DNA of 64,000 bases from Ophryocystis elektroscirrha (Eukaryota; Apicomplexa; Conoidasida; Neogregarinorida; Ophryocystidae). A program made the translations under genes and the position numbers. Shown here piece after piece: positions 550 to 47,000 of the stretch (positions are counted from its first letter, which is position 1; every line of letters starts with the position of its first letter). The DNA is taken from contig JAQIFP010000047.1 of assembly GCA_030141585.1 (NCBI GenBank), forward strand, positions 103,358-167,357, given 5' to 3'. The notes beneath the pieces are model-generated. The model ran no database searches, was not told the origin of the DNA, and was given only the letters and a program-made list of their open reading frames with translations.

Positions 550-3500
550 CTATATGTATCCAATGTATAATAATTGTGTAATATTTATAATATTTACTTG
601 ATGGAGTCCTTTTAATAATGTCTTATTAGGCCGAGATATAAACTCAATATTTTTTACTTCAGTTGAAGTGCTTTCACTTGTATTTGTACTGGACTGACGC
701 CAATGTACTGCGGGTATAGCATGTTGACGTCTCAACGAATATTTTCCCGTCTAAAGAGGTATTACTTATGATATTATTTTACTTGTGGCTCCAAATATTC
801 TTGTTTCCGAATACGAATAACGCTATCCAAAACAAAGCGTTTTAAATGTGCATGTTCTTCCTATGCATGTGTGAAACTTAATTGAATTTACTGTATCAAC
901 TGGTGCTTTCTTAAACATAGTTTGGTAAATAGAATTTTCTTTAGGGATTTGTAACACTTTTGCTTGAATTTTATTGTCTTTTCCGGGTCTCTTCGTGACT
1001 AACTGAATTTGTATTTGATCACTAAGGACATTATCCTACAAAAATTAAATTAACTATGTCGAAATATAAAAGTATAAATAATTCATATAATACCTATAGT
1101 AATATAGATTAAATTAATTATGTGTCTATATATAGTAAATAGACACATAATTAATTAGTCTTTTATATTAAAATTATAATTGTAATAATTATTTATAATA
1201 ATTATTATAATTATTAATTCTTATAATTATTAACTATCATTATTATTTATCATTACAATTATTAGTTATTATAGTATTATTATAATAATTGATAATTATA
1301 TTTATCAATTAAATTTTTTTTTATTTGTAATTAATTTACTGTTGCAGTAAGATTAGATTTTCCAAGATTACGAAATTTGGCATCATCCGCTAAAGTTATA
1401 CGATATTTCGGAACACTGTTGATCATTTTAGCTTCGCGAATACCATCTCCAATTAATGCAGTGATTTCGTGGTCCAAAAACGCTTTCTAATAAATATTTA
1501 AGTAAAAATTGATTACTTCAAGTTCCTCAGCATCAACATTTTCGGAATACTCTATATCGGAATTTTTTGCGTTATCTTCCTCCACAATTAAGTCTTCATC
1601 TAAATCAGTTTCGACTGATGTTGTATATGTTTCTTCTTCAGAGGATGGTTCTGTGAAATTCTCATCTGATTCTGCCTCTGACAATATTTTATTGTCCTCA
1701 TCAAGTTCTCGCACCTAGTAATATTTTTTTACTATAAAAAAAGGTGTACTTCAGTGACTTCATAATTGTCGACTTCTTCATCCTCAGCTACTATTGCTAT
1801 TATTTCATTATCTATTGTTCGTAGATCATTCAGTCTGATGAGCTTGAGAGTAAATTTAATTATACAGAACATTTTTTTTATTATATATAAAAAAATACTT
1901 TATTAAAATTATTATTAGTATTATCATTTATATAATTATATTAATTATGTTATATATAATTAATATAATTAATTATATTATAAGTACTTTTTTCACACAA
2001 ATTCAAGAAATATGCAATGTATGTACATCTAAATAAATATAAGTACGTATGAATAAATATATGTACGTATAAATAAATATATGTACGTCTAAATAGTAGT
2101 ATATATAAATGTAATATTTTTTTGACAAAAAATGTCATATAATTATTTAAATTACAATACAGCTTGAGGATTAATGATGGAGATGGCATCAATAATATTT
2201 AAGTAAACGGACACTGGTAAAGGTTGCTTAAAATACAAGTAACGTTGGAAAAATGCCAAAAATCGATTAATTCTTGTTCGGAAAACTCCTTTAACGAAGT
2301 ATTGTCCGCTTGTTTGTAAAATTACACAAACAAACTTCGCTCTTAAGAAGTCTCCATTCACATCTTCGGGGGCAGTTGGATCAAATAACCTATTAGCTTC
2401 TTGAACTTCACATTCAGGTACTTGATCTGGTATAATATCTTTTGAAAGATTACCATCTGACTCTCCTAAAGCAAAACAAGATAAATAAAGCAGGAAAATC
2501 AATCTACACACTGTATATAGCAAATTCCTCATGAATTCATAACTAAACAATTCTTTTTTTTTTGTACACATTGTATATACTTTATACTACTCCAATGTAC
2601 AAGATACTTTAATCTGGCAAATAAATAAGACCAATAAAAATAATTTAGATTATATAAAGTTTAAAGGAAACTCTTTGCATGTGACGTATATAATGCACAT
2701 TAATTATATTAATTATATGCGAAATAATTGTTTATTATTATTTTTGATTATTTAATAAAATATTACCTAATAAATGTTGGTTATTTGTTTTGATGGCAAG
2801 CTGACGGAAAACTTTAGACGAACTACACCCATGAGATGTGGGTCCGCCAAATCCAATGAACTGATACAGTAAATCAAGGAGTTCATCAGTGGATAATATA
2901 CGGTAATTGAATAATTCCCCTATTAGCTTGACTATACGTATATTAGTGGGTAAAGCATACGTGCATACAGTTTCTAAACTGATTTGTATATATTCCATCA
3001 AATAATCGATAAAAAGAATAACAAAAGTAGGTTTAATAGGGGCAAGTGAAGTCAATAAAAGGGCTAATGTATTATAAGAGTTATAATTAATATTTGAATT
3101 GGAAATACTTTTAAATAAAATTTTATATAACCAAGAATGGACTTTGTCATCACCCCAGTTTAAACGACGTATAGCCCGTACAATAGCTTTAATATTGTTT
3201 TTATTAAGGGAATAAAATATTAAATATTTTATATATAACTTTTCTATAGAGCGCGGTTTTTGCTTAGAGTTTGACTTCTTATTAAAGTATTCTTTAGGGA
3301 ATATATAGTAATAAGCATCTTCAATCATAACTTCACAATATACAGGTAAATTACGTATATTTTTTAAGTGAAGCATTTTCTGTAAGACATTGTCATTAAA
3401 ATCTTTAGAGAGACCTTCATAATTAAGCAAAAATCTTCCACAATTTTGAATAATTGAAGTAAGAATTTCGACATTTATATGGTTAAAATCGTTTATTAGG

Positions 3501-5326
3501 TCTATACATATATTATATACAGTGCCCACGGGAATTAATTTGAATTTTACTAATTCACTTAAATATTTCACAATTTTGATTTTTATTTCTGGGTTTTTAT
3601 GACTAGTATTGTGATACATAGTCTGTAATTTATTAGAAATAACGCTTGCAATATCATTTCCGAAATATGGGTTTATGGTAGCAATAAACCTTGATATGTA
3701 TGGGAGTATATATACATCACTACGGGTAAGGCAAGTTAAGTTCTTTATTATTTTTTTTCTATTCATTTTAGATACGTTAAGTCTATCATAGAAAAAAGTT
3801 ATAGCCAATTGATCCACATCATGAGCTGATGTACAAAGATTTAATTTGTTAAAAAAATGATTTAATAATAAAACTTTTTTGGAATCATCTTTGACTTCAT
3901 TTTCGACTGAATCCTCATTATCTGATGCCAACTGTTCTTGTTTTGTCGATAATTGCCCGAAAGATACTTGTTTCGAGAGATTGCCTGTTTCTTCAACAAC
4001 AGGAGTTTCTCTATCTTTATTAGCTTCTGCGATATCATTTATATTATCATTCAATTTTTTATTATTTTCTTCGTTATTAACTGAAAGTTTAGAAATACTT
4101 TGCTTTGAATTACTGGGTTGTATTACTGTAGGATTTAAAAGAATACTTGGAACAGCATCCGTCAAATTTAATAAATTACAGTAAAAATCTTTTTCAGTCT
4201 CATTGTCCCAAATCGAGTCAATTACATCATTTTCGGCATTTCCGTTATCTCTATTATCAGATTGAGACGGGGAGACCAAAACAGCGTCTTTGGTGGATTT
4301 TTCATTAAAAGGTATTTCATTATTATTATTTAAACCAGAATCGTCAGTAGACTCAGATATACGCAAAACAGTCTTCAGTACATCAAATTGCTCATTTAAT
4401 TTATTATAAGTTATTAAAGCCTGTTGATATTTATTTTCGGACTCTGCATCTATTTTTCCACGGTATATTTTTTTTTGTTGATTAGCATTATTTTGTTGAT
4501 TTACTGTATTTTTGGTTTTTTTTAACAGAGTATTTGAGTATGTTATATAAAACTCTGTAAACTTATTCCGTATGTACTTTTTTAATGTATCATTAAGACA
4601 GCATTTTCTTATAATTTCTTTACCTGATACTTCTGTACTTATATTCGTTTGCGTTGGTTTTGAAGGTACATCTATTATAGCGGTATCAAATCTTTTACAT
4701 AAAGATTCTATTACCCCTACATTTTGGATAATTAGGGATTCAACTGTATGAGTATTTCGAGTGGTCTCACAAAGACATGAAATCATTCGAGTTAACGGCT
4801 CAACCAAGTCTTCATTATTAATAATACCAATCAATATAAGCTCTATTGTAAGACGTGGTATTATACGCCTTCGAGTAATCGCATTTTTATCGTTTGGATT
4901 ATTAACTAAAGCAGCATTTGTTTCAATAAAATTTTTCCACGAAGAAGTTTTATATGCTTCCGTAAAATCTGTGGCATAATGTTGGTATAGTAAAGAACAT
5001 ATTTCCATAAGAGTAGGAATATCTTTTACTCTTAAAGGCCCTTTACATATACTATCACATATTTCACTTAAATGCATAGTCACATCCAGTTTTTCCAGTT
5101 CACTTATAACTCCATCTTTATCTAATTCTGCATTAAATCTCCGTAATCTGTTCACTAATTTCTGAACCTTTAGTACGCTTTTTTCACGCAGATTTTTACT
5201 CTTACTGATACCTACCACACTATTTTGAAGTAATAATAAATATCGAAATTGATCAACCTCCTCTAAAATAAGAGCTTTATCTTCTGCGTCTTTACGTGAT
5301 TGTGTCAGTTCAGTATCAACAACCAT
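550..5326 (-). CDS. UPF2: UPF2 (NMD2), nonsense-mediated mRNA decay factor
   Basis: UPF2 bridges UPF3 and the helicase UPF1 in nonsense-mediated decay. I read eight exons: 5326-2767, 2465-2161, 1842-1750, 1714-1517, 1486-1340, 1035-892, 860-783 and 750-550. All junctions are GT-AG; introns are about 301, 318, 35, 30, 304, 31 and 32 nt. The joined length is a multiple of three and gives about 1241 residues, close to the human protein (about 1270). The first exon holds helical MIF4G-type repeats; its end (ELFNYR, LLYQFIGFGG) and the start of exon 2 (QTSGQYF, FLAFFQRYL) match the third MIF4G domain. An acidic stretch of E/D/S follows. The C-terminus (IQLVTKRPGKDNKIQ, then EEHAHLKRFVLD) matches the UPF1-binding tail. 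The exact last codons are less certain, because donor-like GTAAAA and GTAAAT occur inside the final exon. Confidence 0.9.
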
Positions 5327-9512: not shown

Positions 9513-11005
9513 CTAATAATTGTAAATTGCTAAAATATATGGCATTTATTAAATTATATAATAATATTTTCATTAAAATTAGTTTTTATAATTGTTCGAA
9601 TATATTGATACTAATGAAAAATTTGTACTCATAGGAACATAGAGGATTTGAATAGCTTAGAACCTACCTTGATACTTAAAAATAAAAAAAATAAAGATAA
9701 AAAAAAAAGATCTGTTTTGACGCTTCATCACAATAAAAACTCATTGTAAAATAAGTTTATTATTTATACGTTTATATAGAAACTTTTTAGCTTCTGGTTC
9801 TGCGGACAAAAAAATTCGTTTATGGGATTTATTAGAAGAAAAAATTGTTGCTCAATATAAGCATCATGAAGCAGAGGTAATAAACCTATGTTTGAAATTT
9901 AACTTAACTTTTAACAATAATCTTTAAAATTAATATTATAAAATTTTAGAGTAATATATAAAATTCATTAATTACACTTCAGCTTATATGATTACCTACA
10001 TATATATACATTCTTAAATTGATTAGCAATCTTTATCTTGATAATCTTTTATTTTATATAAATTGATTAAACTGTCATTTATGTTTTAATTTTATATACA
10101 CTAATATAACAATTATTGATAACATTACTTTTATAGCGTTAAATGTATACATAGTTTAGGTAACTCATGTGAAATGGCATCCAGTTGAAGAGACTGTACT
10201 ATTGTCATCTGGAGAAGATAAAGTGGCTTCAGTTATTGACGTCAGGTCTCCAACCGATGGGGTAATATTTTGTTATATAATAAAACATATAGATTATATA
10301 CATATACTAAATTATATTAAAATTATATATATACATTATATATATAATCATATGTGTATACATTATATATAAAATAAACATTATATATTAAAATATAATA
10401 TTGTAATGGTTGCAATGAAATTTATTGAATTTTACGCAAACGTTGAGATAATGAACGAAAGTCTATTATAATAAATACATTTTATAATTGATGTTTTCTT
10501 ACAGTTACAAAAAGAAATGCGTAAGCAAATTAATGCTTGTATATGGCTCCAAAGTGATCCAACAAAATTTCTAATTAGTTACGGAAAAGGTTCCGTAGCA
10601 TGTTATGATATTCGTGGATGGTCAAAAGGAAGCACAAAACCATTTTGGAAAAAAACTCTACACGAATCAGTATGTACTGGAATGGCAGATTACTCAGGTA
10701 TATTATTAAATTTATTTGATGCAATTTAGGTGTTCCTATATTTATGACCACGGCAACTGATGGACAAGCCCACGTTTGGGCAATTCAAAAGAATCAGGAA
10801 ATCGTCAATTTGACTAACCGACATCTCAACGCGGTACACTTCTTCTACTAAAAAGACTCAATGATATTAGGGTACCTTATACGACGTTGATAAACATCCT
10901 GATATACAATCTTTATTTGCATGTGTCGGAAATGTCCCTGTTCTCTGGGACATTAACGAATCTAGTGCTGTTTCTAATTTCGTCAATGAATACAAAAAAA
11001 ATTAA
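8553..11005 (+). CDS. PWP1: PWP1-like WD40 protein (periodic tryptophan protein 1)
   Basis: PWP1 is a nuclear/nucleolar WD40 protein linked to ribosome biogenesis and chromatin at rDNA. The ATG at 8553 opens MKSKITTCKWIPRN, like the family start with Cys-x-x-Trp-Val. The second exon (from about 9107) carries SDCLLITATTDLQQCTVEL and NAFYVHHEIL, the family's YVHHDILL motif, followed by LDWIPPTDKYP and GSNDIEFWNIEDLNSLEP. WD repeats follow: LASGSADKKIRLWDL, VTHVKWHPVEETVLLSSGED with VIDVRSP, GKGSVACYDIRG, TATDGQAHVWAIQ and GNVPVLWDI. Several introns are 30-40 nt; those near 8800-9106, 9430-9633 and 9877-10159 are longer and contain (TA)n. The protein is shorter than the human one, with a short acidic linker. 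Confidence 0.88.
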
Positions 11006-11208
11006 GCAATAACTGTTTTTCTTTACTGTGTAAAAAAACTGAATAATTTATTTTTATATTGTTCTTTCTACTTTTTTTTAGATATTGTAAACTTGCTAAA
11101 TTATGAAAATTATTAATTATTCGGGATTGCAAACAAATTAAAAAATATAAAAATATATGATAAGTGTTCATTTAATTATCAAAATCATCAAATGATTCGC
11201 TTTTAGCT

Positions 11209-14200
11209 ATGTTTTTAAAAAAAACTTTTTCTTCGTTGCTTTATCTCCTTTCAAATATACAAGACAAATATACGAGGTGAAAACTTCTTCAAAATAATAA
11301 TTTATAGTGATCTATCGATTATAGATTCTTCAGGTACTTTAAGAATATTTTCAGATACAAGTAGATGGAGAATATGAATGGGTATCTTATGAAAACTTAG
11401 AAATTAACAGTAAATTCTCAATTCTTTATGTTATTGTATAAAGACAATATCAATGGTTCTGATTTTGCAAAATATTATTTGCCACCAGTCGAACCAGTCG
11501 ATATTTTAGGGGATCGATCTTCAATAGACACTGGTAGAATCAACAGTGCTAAATACCATATCAGATGAACTTAATTTAGGTCTGGATCAAGAACTGTCTC
11601 TTCGTACGTTACATTTTATATATAATTATGATTTATTATTTGATAACTAAAAAGAAATAATTCTTCTTTGGTAGACTTATCTATTACATGTCAACTGACA
11701 TATATAATAGCTACAGTAATAGACAATTATATAGCTTTTAGACAGTACATAGTATTATGGGATACAGAGGCATTCATAATGAATCAGCGATATTATCAAA
11801 TATATGGTCATATAATAGAGGCTTTTATTAGTTTACAATACTACGTTGATATGTAGTAAATAAGAATAATGATAGCAAGAAATGCAATCGAAATACTGTT
11901 GCTAATATATATTTGAAATTAATTAGTTCCTGCGTGTAATAACATAGTATTGATATTTAAGTAAACATAAAACTATGCTATAAGTTCATCAACTCGCTCA
12001 AAGATAATTATTTTACAAATTCTGCGAATTAAATATATATATATATATATATATATTTTGAGAAATATAAATTAATTAAATCTACACATTCTTTATGCAA
12101 CACAATAAACAAATCTTAACTCGACTAAAAGTTAAAATAATATTTATTTAACGTTAATTATTTATGAAATATTTTTCTTTATAAGTAATTGACTTTTTAT
12201 ACTTATGAATTTATAAATTATTGGCGCACCGTAAATACATCAAACATTGATTATATAGATCATTAGAAATAAATTTATATGGTAATTTTTATTGTAGAAT
12301 ACAAATACAAGCATTTTGGTAGTTACACAATAAACAGCTGCGCTTAAATTTAGTCAACATTTATAACATAATCATGTATATTTATTAAACTAATAGATAT
12401 ATTGTTTTATGTCAATTATTACGACGAATTTTTAGAAGAAGACTCCCAAATTGATACAACAATAAAATCAGATTATCAAACGGGTAATTTCTAGTGTGAA
12501 AAAATAATAACAACAATAATTAATATTTTATATATATATATATATGTATATATTTTAATATTAATATCTCAAGTGTAATACATAACCATAAATTATTGAC
12601 TACTTAAACTTAATGCATCTGCAATGTCATTATGAATTGTCAGAAATTTCGTTATTGTTACAATTTTCTACTAGAATGAGGATGCTATATATATAAAGCT
12701 TTTCAGTATTTGATAGATTTATTAAGGCTTGTAATAAGTACAACTATACTCAGCAGCTTACCAAATAATCATATAACATGCATTACATAAGTCATCAGTT
12801 TATAAGCTTACTTTCATTATATAAAAGTTGACAGCATTTGTGATTTTACTTCATATTATTTTCACTTTCAGATGAAGTTTCCAGCTTTCAATCAAAAAAA
12901 GGTAAAAAAACTTATAAAATCAAGATTTATTCTGATGTTAAGTCAATCATTTGTTAGTATAATCTTTTCTATATGATTATATATGAGGTGCAACTGACAT
13001 TTACGTAATATTCTTGTCAAACTAAATCTATTAATTTCAAACTATTAGTAATTTAACAATAACTAAAATACTTCAACTATCATATACGTTTACCGTGTAT
13101 ATTACATTACATTTGTAGTATAATGGAAAATCTATATATTCTAGAAATAATAAATTGTACTTTTCCTCAATAGATCAAGTTCCTCTCTATGAATCTCAAG
13201 GTGTGATCATATGCATATGCTCAAAATATCAATATATGACACATAAGACGTCGTATTAGTAACCTATAACAAAATAGACTAATATCTTTCAAAATAAAAA
13301 CCCCCACTATTTGTATATTTTAGAAGAAATACCAGAATATCAATCTCACCAAGGTATATATAAATAATCTTTATATGTTCAGTTAGTAATGATAATATAA
13401 TGACATTTGCGTGGGTAGAACATACAGGGTCTTTGTATAATAACAAACTATCCTTTATATCGAAATAAATTGAAAATATATTATATATAATTTATTTATT
13501 ATCTATAAATTTTAATATCAATTAAACTTATTTATTTATATATACATATATATATATATATATAGTATGTCTTAAATAATCTAATTCAAATCTAACGTGT
13601 TCCAACATTTTGAAAAATTACTAAGGAATAACTGTAATTTCTTAAATCATTAATATATTATTTTCAGTTTCAGACGAACGCCTTCCAAGCTACTCGAGAG
13701 AAGGTACAATATATATATATATATATATATATATTCCGTCAAAATATCAACATATGACACACAAGACGTCATATTAGTAACCTATAACAAAATAAATTAA
13801 AACCTTTCAAAATAAAAACCCCCACTATTTGTATATTTTAGAAGAAATACCAGAATATCAATCTCACCAAGGTATATATAAATAATCTTTATATGTTCAG
13901 TTAGTAATGATAATATAATGACATTTGCGTNNNNNNNNNNNNNNNNNNNNNNNNNNNNNNNNNNNNNNNNNNNNNNNNNNNNNNNNNNNNNNNNNNNNNN
14001 NNNNNNNNNNNNNNNNNNNNNNNNNNNNNNTTAAAACCTTTCAAAATAAAAACCCCCACTATTTGTATATTTTAGAAGAAATACCAGAATATCAATCCCA
14101 CCAAGGTATATATAAATAAACTTTATATGTTCAGTTAGTAATAATAATATAATGAAATTTGCGTGGGTAGAACATACAGAGTATTTGTATAATAACAAAC

Positions 14201-14288
14201 TATCCTTTATATCGAAATAAATTGAAAATAGATTATATATAATTTATTTATTATCTATAAATTTTAATATCAATTAAACTTATTTATT

Positions 14289-14320
<32 letters not shown>

Positions 14321-16211
14321 GTATGCCTTAAATAATCTAATTCAAATCTAACGTGTTCCAACATTTTGAAAAATTACTAAGGAATAACTGTAATTTCTTA
14401 AATCATTAATATATTATTTTTAGTTTCAGACAAACGCCTTCCAAGCTACTCGAGAGAAGGTACAATATATATACATATATATATATGTTGTATATAAATC
14501 AGAAAAAATTCCATTATATAAATCTCAAAAAGGTATAAATCACTTGAACGATGATACAGTTGATATATATTAAAAATATATTGCATTAATACATTTAAAA
14601 CTTTTACATAATGAGGTTTAAATGAAATAAATAGGTTAATTTTATTTTTTTTAATTAAATTATAATGTATTAGAGTTTGTCTTATGTTGTAATTCTATCA
14701 ATAACAATATACTCTAGATATATAGTTAGATCTTTTATTTATACATTTATGTTTATAATAACTACATTAATCAATATATAGATTGCAACCTATGCGACAA
14801 TTAATTAACCTAAATTAAATATTCTTTAAAAAAGTTCACACTCTATGATTAATCATACGTATCTTCCTTTAAAAAATCATATCTTCTAAAAGAATAATAA
14901 ATAACGTACTGCATTTAAATTAGATTTGCTCATGAATTTATATAAAATTGCTTAGCCAATAATTTATAAATTTTTATAATGTATTCATAATACTGTAAAA
15001 TATATAATCAAATTATGAGAGAATAATTGTTATATCATTAATTTATTAATTATTATTATTATTATTGTTATTATTATAATTATTATTAGACAGCACAAAT
15101 GTCTTCATTGAAAACAATAAACGAGCAAATTCAGTTTATATGTCTGATTAATAAAAAGTTCAAACTTTATTACATGAGCATAGATGACTGATGAATTGCG
15201 CATTTTTTTTTAGATACAGATGTCAATATGGACTCAAAAAGAACCTCTACTACAAATAAAAATAAAAGTATGAGAATTAATCGAATATAGCTGTGTGTAA
15301 TAATTAAATAGAGAAGTCAAGAAATTTACCGAAAAAAGATAAATCAGATATAAACAATCAAATGACAAGTAAATTTATACTTTAAGTTTTTTATTCTGAC
15401 CAGTTAAAGACTTACCACATTTACTAGCTTCAAATAATGATAAATTAGTTAATACACTAGTGTCAAGTTATCTAGACAAGATCAATGAAAAAAAGAAGTT
15501 TTTGGAATACATAGATGCTGAAGAAGCAGAAAGAGCCTTAATAAATCATAACTTATATGAGACTTTCACTAAAACTAAACCACTTAGCGCTCCCGATCAT
15601 GAACATAATGGTACGGAACATATGAATTTAAGAATGAATGCAATTATTTATCTTAACATATTTATGTATGGCTATTATAAAATTATTTGATATAATACAA
15701 TTTGATTGTTTATATCGAAATAAATTAGAAGGTGATGTTAAATTTAATTAAAATGATTTATGCTACATTAACAGAGATGTCTGAGCAAAGTCCAAAAGAC
15801 TTGACACAACTTTTGACAAAATATCCACAACTTGCTATATTACTCGTTGACACATGCGCTATTAGAAACGCTGTGTACAATTATATAAATAACAGAAACA
15901 TCAATAATGCGTCAAATGTGAATGTTTCGAATCAGTTAAAAAACCTGACTGGCACCAATTCACCCTCAAACATGAATGATAGAAATTTAATGTCTAATAT
16001 AGAAATGCTATTATCAAAGTTGTATAATTCTATAAAAAATGATGACCATGAAGCAATAAACACTATTATTCCTATAGGTAAGAACTTTTCCACTATTGTC
16101 TAATTTCTAGATACGGAAAATGCTAATGTTCAGTGTTTGAAACTAAGCGACTTCTTGTGCAAACACAACACTGGATATGTCCAAGTTTTTAATTTCTGCA
16201 ATGGAATATAA
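11209..16211 (+). CDS. Micro-exon gene encoding decapeptide repeats, unrecognised
   Basis: I do not recognise the product. From 11444 onward every exon I can define lies between phase-1 GT-AG introns: 11444-11533 (90 nt), 11565-11603 (39), 12436-12483 (48), 12872-12901 (30), 13174-13200 (27), 13324-13353, 13674-13703, 13842-13871, 14076-14105, 14430-14459 and 14503-14532 (30 each), 15214-15267 (54), 15312-15368 (57), 15404-15610 (207), 15775-16077 (303), and a last exon from 16111 to the TAA ending at 16211. The micro-exons encode related peptides: DEVSSFQSKK, DQVPLYESQ, EEIPEYQSHQ, DERLPSYSRE, EKIPLYKSQK. The C-terminal 200 or so residues are helical and Asn-rich. The suggested start (MFLKKTFSSLLYLLSNIQ) looks like a signal peptide or anchor, but splicing between 11270 and 11444 is unresolved and exons between 11604 and 12435 may be missing. 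An assembly gap lies inside the gene. Confidence 0.6.
13221..14460 (+). repeat. Tandem duplication, unit about 518 bp, holding two micro-exons
   Basis: A unit beginning TCAAAATATC at 13221 restarts at 13739 with few differences, and a third, slightly diverged copy is seen from 14031 to 14460. Each full unit carries one EEIPEYQSHQ exon, a long near-identical intron with a (TA)n run, and one D(E/K)RLPSYSRE exon. Exon differences include T to C at a silent site and E to K. Because the exons are 30 nt and flanked by phase-1 introns, each extra unit adds 20 residues in frame. Confidence 0.9.
13931..14030. other. Assembly gap (100 N) inside the tandem duplication
   Basis: Exactly 100 N, the usual placeholder for a gap of unknown size. 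If only one more repeat boundary is hidden, the 518-bp period predicts about 384 missing bases; more copies would make it larger. The micro-exon DERLPSYSRE of the second unit must lie within it. Confidence 0.95.
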
Positions 16212-16362
16212 TAAAAAAAAAAGAACTGTGCAAAGATAGTGACAACTTTTTTTTTAAACTTGATTAATCTTATAAATCTGGCAAATTAAAGTATGCTTCG
16301 TTAAACTTCTAATAGTTCCACACTTAATAAAAAAAAAAAACCACCAATTTTATCTGTAAAAT

Positions 16363-17793
16363 ATGGATTACTTACGTGACCTATCAGAAGATTATCCGTT
16401 AGACACTCAATTTTACCCCATAAATTTTATAAGACCAAAAAAAGCGGAAAGAAATGTATTTGACAGATTGACAGATCATCAATTTTATACTGTATGTACT
16501 AACCTAACAATTAAATAATTTAATTTATTTCACAGTAATATAAATAAGTTAAGTAGTTTATGAGTATACAGCGTATGCAAACTCTGTACTAATGATACTA
16601 CAGCTTTATTAATTGTACTAACTCGTGTTTATGTAACAATTATTGACAATATATAAACAAAATTTCATGTTCAATAAAAAAACGCAAAATAAATGTATAT
16701 CTAACAGTTTATATTACGATTTAATATATTTAAATATTGTTTGGAATAAAGCTATAAATTAAGTTAATTTATTCAAGCAATTTTCTTTAAAATTAGTTTT
16801 TTTTTATTTTTAAAACGCAATTATGGTATAATATAAATACTTATGAAAGTTATGAAATAGTTAACGATTAAAAAAGAAAAAATTCGCTTGAATTTTTTTT
16901 TTTTTTTCAGGATTTTAATTGCAGAATGTAAATCAATCTAATGTATGTTTGATAATCATTATGTGTATAGACAAAGTAATAAATAAATACTGTATTTAAT
17001 ATTTGATTCACTTTAATTATAGGGTATTCATAAAGAGCGATTTGATGAGTTTGGAATTGGTCGAGGATTGGCAGGGCGTGAATATTTATATCTAGATGAC
17101 GGTATGACCGAAAGTGCTTCAAGATGTCATGAAGTTTATTCAACCACAATTAAATTGCGTAAGATATATAGCATTTAGATAGCTTTTGTTCAAGCTAGAA
17201 AGCCAGTTGTTGAAGAGGGAACTTTAGGAGTGCAGAAGTTTGGTGTTCAAACAGTAACACCAAAACTTATATGGCTTTATAGGTAAGTGTAGGATATTGT
17301 ATAATTTATAATTGTATTTAATTATAATAAAAGCATATATTTATATATATATATATTAGAAATGGAGACAAATATCACAATGGAGTTGATTTTTTTGTAA
17401 AAAAACATATAAAAACACTCAATACTTTGTATCAGGAAGCAACTAAAGTAATCTTTGTTATTATGAATATTATTTAGCTTGTTAAACCTGTAGCTGGTCC
17501 TATACGTTGCTTGTATGATCAGAATCTAAAACTTGTCACAGATCTATGTGAAATTGTTGATGGTGGTAAATACTTATGCACTTCAGGTACAAAACTGATT
17601 CATTTTTCAAGCTTATACAAGCTTGTATATTCCTATTTTATATATGCACATATAAAATAGTAATTTAGCAATAATATTAAGCTTGAAATATTCTCATATT
17701 TATCATATACTCATTTGATGCTCAGGGGAACCTCCTACTCATATAGACCGTCTAGAAAAATTTTTGAACTCCTGGGTTTATCAGGATGCATAA
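16363..17793 (+). CDS. Apicortin (partial p25-alpha plus doublecortin domain)
   Basis: Apicortin is a tubulin-binding protein of the apicomplexan cytoskeleton, associated with the conoid or apical microtubules in studied species. Six exons give about 209 residues. Exon 2 (from about 17023) has GIHKERFDEFGIGRGLAGRE, the short p25-alpha motif with the Gly-rich core. From about residue 115 the doublecortin fold follows: KLIWLYRNGDKYHNG, then VDFFVKKHIKTLNTLYQE, LVKPVAGPIRCLYDQ and IVDGGKYLCTSGE. Length matches the family. The last codons overlap the stop end of the opposite SulP gene by 13 bases. The junction near 17160 is best read with the acceptor TTTAGATAG, since the earlier AG gives a stop. 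Confidence 0.93.
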
Positions 17794-18572
17794 TTTTGTC
17801 GATTTTCTTCTATTTTATATTGGGCCCAACAAACAGCATCATGCACACATAAAAAACAATGCTCCGTTGAGATATAATTGTGGAAATCTGTGCTTCTTAA
17901 TAAATCTCTCATTAAACCTTTCCAATTAGCAAATAAAAGCATACATCCATTATCTTTCAAATAATTATTTAAATCAATTAAAGATTTGACCGCAGATAAA
18001 TCAAGAAAATTAACACCACTTACGTCTAATATAATTGCTTTTACACAGCCATTCGATGGTTTTTCATAGTCCAATATAATGTTTTCCGATGATATGCATT
18101 TGGGTGTCATATTTTCTCTATTACCTATTATGCTTTCGTCATGGCTCTTTTTAGTCTTTGTATCAGATGATGTACCTTGACTAATCTCTATACAAGTTGA
18201 CGGCATTCCAATTACTGAAAATGGTTTTTCCATACATATACTATTAGATTCTTTGGGTTCCACTAATTCCTTTACTTTTTCTTCTAATAAATGTTTGTTT
18301 GTAAAATTCAACGAAGAGTCAAAACGAATTATTTTACATTTATTTTCTTCTTTAGCCATTGGAAACCTACTTATATCACGGTAGATTGTTGTATTTGGTA
18401 ATCTTCCTAATATAACTATGTTTGGATAAGCGTATTTGTGTAATAACCAAAATAATGAAGTTAATACTCCTATTGTGATTCCTAAATATTCAGTAATCAA
18501 AATATTGCTTAAACTAAATATATACAATCAATTTACTTATAATATTTTACTTTAAATACATTCAATTCCGTA

Positions 18573-44064: not shown

Positions 44065-47000
44065 ATGGAAGAAGAAAAGCCATCTATTGAAGACATTAGC
44101 ATAAGCTCAAAAAAATCTTCTGTAATTGATGAGATTGAGAAAAAATCTCGAAAATCAAATAAAGGTAGAAATTATGCTTATCTCGTAAAAGTTCCATACA
44201 GGTGGAAATAATATAATGAAACAATTAAGACATTGGGGTAAAAAAGTGACTACGGCTGCTTACTCTGCTAAATCTCCCAATTCTACGGAAGGCCAAATGA
44301 ATGCATCTTCAGAAGAATTCGCAAATTCTCAAATAGATCATTCGGTTACATATATTGGGTGTCAAAAACCAGAGCTAGCTATATCGGATGCTGTAGATTA
44401 TCTATGGAAAACAATTAGAGGCGCTCAAATAGCCTCTCCCTTTGTGGACACAATTATTGGGTTATCAGGTATTTATATGTTTGTTCGTATTACTCTTAGC
44501 AAAATAAAGTGTGTTTATTATATCAACATTATAAATACTAATTGATAAAATAAAGTCACAATAAAATTTTTCCTAGTAAATAATTAACATATAATTCAGC
44601 AAAAATCATTCTTTTTATTAAATCTAACCTTTATTTTAGAGTTATTCACACAATAATACTTAAATATATTCAGTATTATGTTTGTGATACGATTAAACCA
44701 TATCTAAAGGACGTTTGTTATGGTTAACATATACTTATTAGTTACATAATATGTATAGCCAAAGTTAATTGTTCAATCTAGACATCAATAACTCCTAAAT
44801 TAATACTGATAATTACTTTAATTATGAGTCAATGTGTGCTCTCTATATACTGCCATGCTTTATTATTTTGTAATAATAATTATTATACTACGTCTTAATG
44901 ATAAACTATCTTATATCGCATACAGTCATATTTGATTATTACTAGTGCATATAAATTATATAAAATATATTAATAAATCATTTTATTGCTTTATAGATTA
45001 GATTACATATGTATGGTAATATAAATAAATATAAAAAAATGTTTTATTTATATATATATTCCTTTTTTTTTGTCAATTTTTAACATTAATGTGAGATATA
45101 TATATATATATATATGGATATAAATTTTTTGTTTGTTAATGAACGATAAATTTAATTGGCTACCATGTTTTCAAATGATGTTAATTAATGATCGATTCCA
45201 CTTGAATTTAAGAGTACTATTTTTTAGGAGGAAATACACCAAGAAAAATTTTTGAAACGTTTTCAAATTTAGTACCGACTTTAGCAGCTGAGTGCCAATC
45301 AGATGACAGTCAAGAAAACAAATCTATAGATTGGAGTAAAGTGAAAATATTTTTAGTTGATGAGCGTTATCTGCCTCCGAATGACTCAAATTTAAATCAA
45401 ACTATGATTCGTGAAACCCTTTTATCAAATGGTACAAGTAATTGATGTATTTACACTTTTAGATGGGGTTAGTATTCCAGAAGAAAACCTAATTTTTCCT
45501 GATACAAGTTTACCATTAAACGACTGTGTCGAAAAATATAATGATGATTTAAGAAAACTCCTTCAGCACTGTGACCGTCCGGCTTTGGTAACTTTAGGCC
45601 TTGGAGACGATGGTCATATTGGTAGCTGGTTTCCACCACTTTCGAACCAAGATTACGACCTTGCTCACTCTGTTGTTAAACTAGCAGTAGCAACACAACA
45701 AGACAGAGGGTAAATTTATAATAATTTTATTATTTAATAAACCTGTGTTTTTTTTGCACACAATTTATATAATAAATTAATTTCTTATTTGTAATATTAA
45801 AAAGTATAACAATTATTAATAATTATCAATAATATCAATATATATATATATATATATTATATAATAGTAATAATAATAAACATATATANNNNNNNNNNNN
45901 NNNNNAATAATAACAATAATAATAATAATTTTGATAACAACAAAAATAATAATAATAATAATAATAATTTTGATAACAACAATAATAATAATAATAATAT
46001 TAGTAATAATTATAAATTTATATGTTTTGCTGGTGGTGGAGAGAAGTATAATACTAATTGTTATTATTGAAAGATTTTAAGGGACTTTTTATTAATTAAA
46101 TTTGACATGAAATTCTATTATTACAAATGATGGAAATTATACTTCTATGCTGATAAAATTTCAGACTTCCCGGAGAAAATAGAATCAGTGTTAGTATGAT
46201 TTTAGTTGAAATGGCTAAAAAAAAACTATTTCTATTGGAAGGAAAAAATAAAGTGAAAACATGGAATAGAATAACTTCGCTAAATACATTAGAGCACTTG
46301 AAACAGCACCCCTTATTACAAGTAAGTTATCATAACTATAAGTGCATGACTTAGGTGCTTAGAACAGAAAACATAACTGTTATTTCGCACCCTCCAATTG
46401 CAAGCACATCTGCTGGAATCATTACATCTGAGTTGCCTTTGTTTATCGTTCTCTTTGGTGCATCAGGAGATCTTGCAAGAAAAAAAATATTGTAAACATT
46501 CTTAAGAGATAATATATAGTATAAACGAAATAGTTGCATTGCAACTTTAGTTCTCTAACATGCGTATATATACATTCAAGATAATTATCAAATATATATA
46601 TATATATATATATATTAATATGTAATTTAATTTTATATAAATGTCTATGGAAATAATTATTACAAATATAACGTTAATTTTATTATTATTCCATACAATA
46701 TCCATTTAATTATATTGACTTTATCTCAAATAAAAATTCCATTAATCTTTATATAATGTGTTTAAATGTTCACGTAATTGAAAAAGTATGTAAAAATGAT
46801 TGAATATCATTGAAATGAGTTTTCTTTGACTATTTAATAATTTAAGCTATGTAAAGTTATGCTAAAAATCGGTGTATTTCTCTATGGTTCAATTATTAAA
46901 TTAAATATACTTGTAGACCAGCTTTATTTGTATTATTTTGTGATGGAATGTTACCAAAGGAATTCCATATAATTGTAATTTATAACTGAAATATATCATT

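Follow-up and report, generated by a model that had tools for sequence, protein, structure and literature searches.

A predicted apicomplexan gene of symmetric phase-1 micro-exons whose repeated decapeptide may form a multivalent array of a short linear motif

We describe a predicted gene, at positions 11428 to 16211 of the 64,000-nucleotide (nt) stretch of Ophryocystis elektroscirrha contig JAQIFP010000047.1 analysed here (the window), whose internal exons are all symmetric in phase 1 and of which eight, of 27 or 30 nt, each encode one copy of a variable decapeptide. The reading that we favour, and that we consider moderately probable, is that of a real, single-copy and lineage-specific coding gene grown by cassettes, in which the decapeptides, as copies of a linear motif, would together give a soluble intracellular protein a multivalent docking site. 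The valency of such a docking site would change with the number of cassettes and possibly with exon skipping.

From the start codon at 11428, the model comprises 16 exons and 1152 nt including the stop (383 codons), with 15 introns of 31 to 832 nt that are in phase 1 throughout (Table 1). Every internal exon is in phase 1-1 with a length divisible by three, so that in-frame skipping is possible. The preliminary description of this DNA had announced exons of 27, 30, 39, 48, 54, 57, 90, 207 and 303 nt in this phase and had stated that any micro-exon could be skipped or repeated without a frameshift; scans and frame checks retrieved AG/GT-bounded, stop-free exons of all these lengths, and the symmetry of the internal exons upholds the second statement. 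Its count of six 30-nt and one 27-nt decapeptide exons is here raised to seven and one, and its 90-nt exon, the frame of which is indeed open, is taken by the gene finder as a part of the 106-nt first exon.

The exon chain, its common phase and its micro-exons are in statistical excess. They were evaluated with a simple gene finder, blind to the motif and self-trained on 264 kb (two contigs, 3.3% of the 8.0 Mb assembly, the locus included), which predicts the two strands separately and counts overlapping antisense predictions. Its splice costs were raised and its other costs slightly changed, once, after a degenerate first setting (5 genes and 4402 introns in the last round), and its final result on the 264 kb, the two strands taken together, was 97 genes with 727 introns, of which 340, 225 and 162 are in phases 0, 1 and 2, respectively. 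On positions 11016-16330 alone, the gene finder returned one gene with 12 consecutive introns, all in phase 1, and with six of the eight decapeptide exons. When the whole 264 kb were predicted, the gene came out merged with its neighbors and had 13 same-phase introns in a row, the next longest run being 7; the figure of 13 includes a rejected intron (11409-11444) and a false join to the downstream apicortin gene, the clean count being 12, and three of the exons concerned are recent duplicates. Furthermore, six exons of at most 36 nt follow each other at the locus, the next longest such run in the 264 kb being of two. Dinucleotide shuffles of 12496-15200 (n = 200) gave no exon of this size in 188 cases and one in 12, against six in the real sequence, these six representing three distinct sequences since A1/A2/A3 and B1/B3 are recent duplicates.

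Table 1. Features of the predicted micro-exon gene, in window coordinates
Feature	Position	Strand	Remarks and basis
Alternative first exon	11209..11276	+	ATG 11209, begins MFLKKTFSSLLYLLS; frame continuity and gene finder runner-up path
Initial coding exon	11428..11533	+	ATG 11428, 106 nt, ends in phase 1; includes the 90 nt 11444-11533; gene finder on 11016-16330
39-nt exon DELNLGLDQELSL	11565..11603	+	Phase 1-1; outside the gene finder's optimal path
48-nt exon EEDSQIDTTIKSDYQT	12436..12483	+	Phase 1-1; first residue set by the preceding exon; gene finder
Decapeptide exon X1, DEVSSFQSKK	12872..12901	+	Divergent copy; gene finder
Decapeptide-type exon X2, DQVPLYESQ	13174..13200	+	27 nt; no gene finder score lost on removal
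Tandem cassettes of exons A and B, each followed by its intron	13221..14486	+	Copies 96-97% identical
Decapeptide exon A1, EEIPEYQSHQ	13324..13353	+	Motif scan, gene finder
Decapeptide exon B1, DERLPSYSRE	13674..13703	+	Gene finder, in 36-nt form from 13668
Decapeptide exon A2, EEIPEYQSHQ	13842..13871	+	Motif scan, gene finder; may duplicate 14076-14105 (assembly gap)
100-N gap within the cassette array	13931..14030	.	Sequence
Decapeptide exon A3, EEIPEYQSHQ	14076..14105	+	Motif scan, gene finder
Decapeptide exon B3, DKRLPSYSRE	14430..14459	+	Gene finder, in 36-nt form from 14424
Decapeptide exon C, EKIPLYKSQK	14503..14532	+	Motif scan; no gene finder score lost on removal
54-nt exon DTDVNMDSKRTSTTNKNK	15214..15267	+	Phase 1-1; gene finder
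57-nt exon KKSRNLPKKDKSDINNQMT	15312..15368	+	Phase 1-1; lysine-rich, resembling a nuclear localisation signal by eye; gene finder
207-nt exon, C-terminal part	15404..15610	+	Phase 1-1; gene finder
303-nt exon, C-terminal part	15775..16077	+	Phase 1-1; gene finder; sub-threshold CSTF2 hinge similarity
Terminal model exon, stop TAA	16111..16211	+	Frame; 3' end unsettled, other exons preferred by the gene finder

Small exons as such are no rarity in this genome, which is dense in introns, since 46 of the 643 predicted internal exons measure 36 nt or less; only eight of these 46 are in phase 1-1, six of them in the present gene. The abundance of short exons speaks for an ordinary constitutive splicing, in which the micro-exons would always be included and their number would carry no regulatory meaning; the product would then be an RNA-processing protein, as its similarity to the CSTF2 hinge and its lysines of nuclear localisation signal type could suggest. 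We regard this explanation as unlikely. Indeed, the match to the hinge profile of Pfam (PF14327), around DLTQLLTKYPQLAILL, scores 14.9 bits and spans residues 70-102 in the C-terminal query and 33 of the 81 profile positions, far below the 27-bit cut-off and ranked among unrelated families of similar E-value, so that the hinge was rejected as an identity for this region. No RRM was found in the pieces scanned with Pfam, and a genome-wide search for the hinge returned no match, this locus included, with only two bacterial controls that responded and none over the cut-off.

The repeated unit itself is far more uniform than chance would have it. A strict scan of both strands of the window for the motif found five places, all inside 13174-14532. 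Micro-open reading frames at the locus, when defined as non-overlapping, in phase 1, of 27-36 nt and with a splice score of at least 8 bits, number eight at that threshold, and they are the eight decapeptide exons. The five distinct decapeptides have a mean pairwise BLOSUM62 score of 21.3, which is reached by none of 20,000 unselected random fives of background micro-open reading frames (mean 7.9), a comparison in which the five decapeptides were hand-chosen. A second test, free of that choice, took the best five of ten random background frames and obtained a mean of 10.4 (standard deviation 1.0, maximum 14.5), with none of 2000 draws reaching 21.3. The consensus initially proposed, (D/E)-x-(I/V/L)-P-x-Y-x-S-x-x, fits neither DERLPSYSRE and DKRLPSYSRE, in which Ser directly follows Tyr, nor DEVSSFQSKK, which has Ser for Pro and Phe for Tyr. 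By eye, the core kept in most copies consists of Pro, Tyr (or Phe), Ser and one aliphatic residue, and the other positions vary. The leading acidic residue is in part a by-product of the splice consensus (G|AN): the split codon within the array always restores Asp or Glu, and one of these two residues also comes first in 39% of 107 background micro-open reading frames. Taken as a whole, the conservation pattern of the decapeptides looks like that of a short linear motif.

Exon sequence has been retained among the X1, X2, A and C copies, B excepted, with decay of the introns around it. Exon identity was expressed as alignment score per base and set against 500 shuffles, with separate nulls for the upstream and downstream flanks. 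The exon scores of 0.61 (X2-A1), 0.68 (X2-C) and 0.77 (A1-C) were reached by none of the 500 shuffles, and those of the X1 pairs by 0 to 3 of them. Flanks of the X2-A1, X2-C and A1-C pairs remain near shuffled levels, which 26 to 263 of 500 shuffles reach, the closest case being the downstream 60 nt of A1-C (26/500). Because the core exon copies are alike and the introns are essentially unalignable, the decapeptide looks selected. The same pattern speaks against a decaying gene or a non-coding tandem repeat bounded by AG and GT by chance, as do the 207- and 303-nt exons, which are open and score 19.9 and 19.5 bits as coding sequence. Such a decay could nevertheless account for the two exons that add nothing to the gene finder score, for the lack of a homologue and for the fact that both gene ends are unsettled; on balance, we hold it for very improbable.

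In the middle of the array, the A and B exons repeat together with their introns, at a distance of 518 nt from A1 to A2. A genome search with the cassette gave strong matches only at this locus; among the matches listed, of 197, those elsewhere were AT-rich pieces. Interpretation of the array is complicated by the assembly gap. Immediately to its left, exactly 127 nt (13804-13930) repeat copy 1 without a mismatch, and the 134-nt segments that abut the gap on its two sides differ from each other in four places. A k-mer size of 127 is common in short-read assemblers, and this 127-nt tail may be a graph overlap (k = 127) at a contig end. Since the sequence before the gap repeats both copy 1 and the start of the sequence after the gap, exon 13842-13871 may be the same as exon 14076-14105. 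Counted as one, these two exons would give a B spacing of 522 nt, matching the 518 nt of A; counted as two, they would imply a B exon hidden in the gap. The cassette copy number is thus left open between two units and at least three. The gene would have grown by tandem duplication of DNA cassettes, each carrying whole micro-exons and introns, and such cassettes can add or remove decapeptides without frame shift because all introns are in phase 1. A further detail of the B exons is the presence of tandem acceptors 6 nt apart (13668/13674 and 14424/14430), which make them in-frame exons of either 30 or 36 nt, the gene finder picking the longer form.

As for the product, residues 1-180 fall to the disordered and residues 181-383 to the ordered side by the charge-hydropathy boundary, and residues 159-172 or so are lysine-rich and resemble a nuclear localisation signal by eye. 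We would expect a soluble, intracellular and perhaps nuclear protein whose disordered N-terminal region would carry the array of [IVL]PxY(x)S motifs, joined through a lysine-rich linker to a C-terminal part that would be folded. The favored start at 11428 yields neither a hydrophobic N-terminus nor a signal peptide. The runner-up, ATG 11209, splices in frame through a 26-nt exon (11308-11333) to 11444 or 11411; its N-terminus (MFLKKTFSSLLYLLS) is slightly hydrophobic and weakly signal-like, with a best 8-residue Kyte-Doolittle mean of 1.9. No membrane-anchor-like stretch was found in the 383-residue model, whose best 19-residue window has a mean of 1.205 on the same scale (in round figures, none above 1.2). 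The variable secreted or surface product proposed at the outset is thus not supported; secretion is improbable rather than refuted, since the start that lacks a signal peptide leads by 2.1 bits only. At the 3' end, the gene finder prefers an exon at 16148-16239 and, without it, reads the 303-nt exon through to 16103 at a score 0.5 bit lower.

Two open reading frames of the region did not find a place in the model. One, at 11355-11409 on the forward strand (IQVDGEYEWVSYENLEIN), is exon-like, going from phase 0 to phase 1, and is perhaps an alternative exon of either neighboring gene or a relic; the gene finder included it only in a path that left the upstream WD40 gene by a splice ahead of the stop codon and omitted it when run on the region by itself, and by eye no ATG in 11000-11354 leads into it in phase 0 through GT-AG introns. 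The other, near 15094 (DSTNVFIENNKRANS), reaches the nearest GT in phase 0, by eye, and is out of step with the phase-1 exons.

Schistosomes reportedly have tandemly repeated exons encoding 81-base repeats, to go by the title of one study, and their micro-exon genes (MEGs) are the closest known parallel in plan. The passages available of three papers describe MEGs in which about 75-80% of the coding region is made of very short symmetric exons of 6-36 bp (PMC5825161, PMC4015677), which yield variable proteins (PMC5825161, PMC4015677, PMC10526429) and whose products are secreted or anchored almost without exception (PMC5825161, PMC10526429, PMC4015677). The likeness lies in symmetric exons of very small size set among longer introns, the duplicated exon patterns and the frame-neutral skipping, seen in MEGs including the 10-3 antigen/MEG-4 (same passages of PMC5825161, PMC4015677 and PMC10526429). 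In contrast, exons of at most 36 nt here provide 237 of the 1152 coding nt (21%) and those of at most 51 nt 324 (28%); there are two long C-terminal exons, no convincing signal peptide, one gene instead of a family, a different phylum, and no sequence relative at E ≤ 10 in 5.8 billion proteins. The analogy with the schistosome plan, made in the preliminary description, is fair insofar as an apicomplexan here has a predicted gene built from symmetric micro-exons in phase 1, and by that analogy the gene would work like a schistosome MEG without any sign of kinship to one.

A stronger version, in which the gene would be a secreted or surface MEG in the schistosome sense, with isoforms made by micro-exon skipping that serve host interaction, strikes us as improbable. 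It would agree with tandem, symmetric tiny exons that carry no frame cost, with the orphan nature of the product and with the in-frame start at 11209, which trails the favored one by only 2.1 bits. However, the start at 11428 is devoid of a signal peptide, the alternative hydrophobic stretch is weak, nothing resembles a membrane anchor, and the share of exons of at most 36 nt stands far from the roughly 80% given for schistosome MEGs in the available part of PMC5825161.

A second parallel is offered by the bicycle genes of aphids, whose proteins carry CYC motifs. These genes, together with megacycle, share with ours many small internal exons nearly all in one phase and highly divergent, lineage-specific proteins, and differ in that their internal exons are almost all in phase 2 and that they form a putative effector family, as described in the accessible part of PMC9168663, against phase 1 and a single gene here. 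No comparable apicomplexan gene was found in the literature on microexons in Apicomplexa, Toxoplasma or Plasmodium or on apicomplexan exon duplication, as covered by titles and the beginnings of abstracts (most subscription journals lie outside this scope), and in the passages checked, from three papers, the term micro-exon denotes an aligner option. Apicomplexan protein repeats usually lie inside one exon.

The gene appears to be an orphan. No homologue was found at E ≤ 10 among the 5.8 billion proteins, either with the C-terminal 203 residues (105 candidates) or with the 383-residue model (2171 candidates), in a word-based search that very distant kin could escape. When the genome was searched with the C-terminal part, this locus was the sole match, and no paralogue was found. 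In Pfam, the C-terminal part gave nothing but matches below threshold. The best relative of this part in the PDB was a Cas10 chain (E = 0.042), followed by a match at E = 1.1, and the two large exons gave a single NCBIfam match, far below the cut-off. A genome search with the joined decapeptides missed even the known exons and has no bearing on the existence of further copies.

Which partner might recognize such an array? PxYxS resembles extended PY motifs, and the decapeptide core resembles the degenerate PY ligands of WW domains, which makes a WW-domain partner conceivable; this is the most speculative step of our reading. The available part of PMC1557994 describes LPxY as a class of WW-domain ligand, and the likeness consists of a repeated [IVL]PxY core placed here in a disordered, acidic context. 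Of the PPxY and LPxY cores of PY ligands, the second occurs, as LPSY, in B1 and B3 only; the other exons have IPEY, IPLY or VPLY, and X1 has none of these. The genome contains four WW matches (contigs C1, C46, C31 and C37), two of them above the cut-off, and six HECT matches, on contigs C29 and C53.

Two of the WW-containing frames deserve mention in their own right. One (L039, G000:C1:90790-93867), with a WW match above the cut-off, has an RRM-RRM-WW-RRM arrangement in a single frame of 614 residues and is CELF-like by eye. The other, on C37, with a match below the cut-off, is a splicing-factor-like protein by eye.

Several observations weigh against a gene whose micro-exons form a selected docking array. 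Regarding the model, the start codon is favored by a margin of 2.1 bits only, and the exons at 13174, 14503 and 11565-11603 and the terminal one at 16111-16211 are outside the optimal path of the gene finder. Regarding the repeat, B1 is not clearly alike to the others as DNA (A1-B1 0.40, a score that 140/500 shuffles reach; X2-B1, 33/500; B1-C, 13/500), and certain flanks resemble each other more than shuffled sequence does, namely the upstream 30 nt of X1-B1 (0.68, 0/500) and the downstream 60 nt of A1-B1 (1/500), so that not every pair has fully diverged in its introns. Between A and C, five of the six codons that differ encode another amino acid, by eye, and only the core residues look constrained as a consequence; moreover, selection is inferred from copies within one gene, no homologue having been found. 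Regarding the partner, the described LPxY form is present in the B exons only, IPxY and VPxY were not found in the part of PMC1557994 at hand, though VPxY is mentioned in two other papers, and a NEDD4-type WW-HECT ligase was rejected as a candidate, no contig being shared by the WW and HECT matches.

Beyond the docking array, a broader claim can be put forward tentatively, namely that an apicomplexan has independently evolved an array of micro-exon cassettes, with one intact linear motif per exon and a valency that DNA copy number and splicing would set; we see it as possible rather than probable. Because every repeat occupies a symmetric exon to itself, the repeat number could be changed by unequal crossing-over in the introns and possibly by splicing. 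If this claim is true, the micro-exon gene principle extends outside animals, and the array is perhaps polymorphic between strains, a variation that the ambiguous copy number at the gap could reflect. Should transcripts confirm the model, the same gene plan would have arisen independently in flatworms, aphids and an apicomplexan. Ordinary annotation would easily overlook such genes, two of the eight decapeptide exons having escaped the gene finder here.

The gene lies between a WD40 gene upstream and apicortin downstream, in a window that is the end of contig C60 in an assembly of 118 contigs. The downstream neighbor carries the p25-alpha and doublecortin domains of apicortin and gave 58 database matches, of which the named ones are all apicomplexan or chromerid except for one record from a Hylaeus bee. 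That the organism is an apicomplexan or close kin, as first supposed, is corroborated by the apicortin next door and by TTTAGGG arrays at several contig ends, found at the starts of five contigs and within a sixth. The bee record (P0003, Hylaeus volcanicus) is an apicortin annotated in a bee genome and is likely an apicomplexan contaminant, bilaterian apicortin matches being regarded as contamination in the available part of PMC12189498. In the apicortin tree, the window sequence falls near the Hylaeus record, the support being left open (80/95). The upstream neighbor was recognized by a WD40 domain match and is presumably PWP1-like. Further away, a single-exon open reading frame of 862 residues on the reverse strand (2738-5326) contains MIF4G domains and is, we assume, UPF2-like, and an open reading frame with a STAS domain lies on the opposite strand near the end of apicortin (17781-18527, reverse). 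Finally, forward-strand peptides between 45.2 and 49.8 kb have motifs that we take to be like those of a fused 6-phosphogluconolactonase/glucose-6-phosphate dehydrogenase, and this region contains a run of 17 N at 45889-45905.

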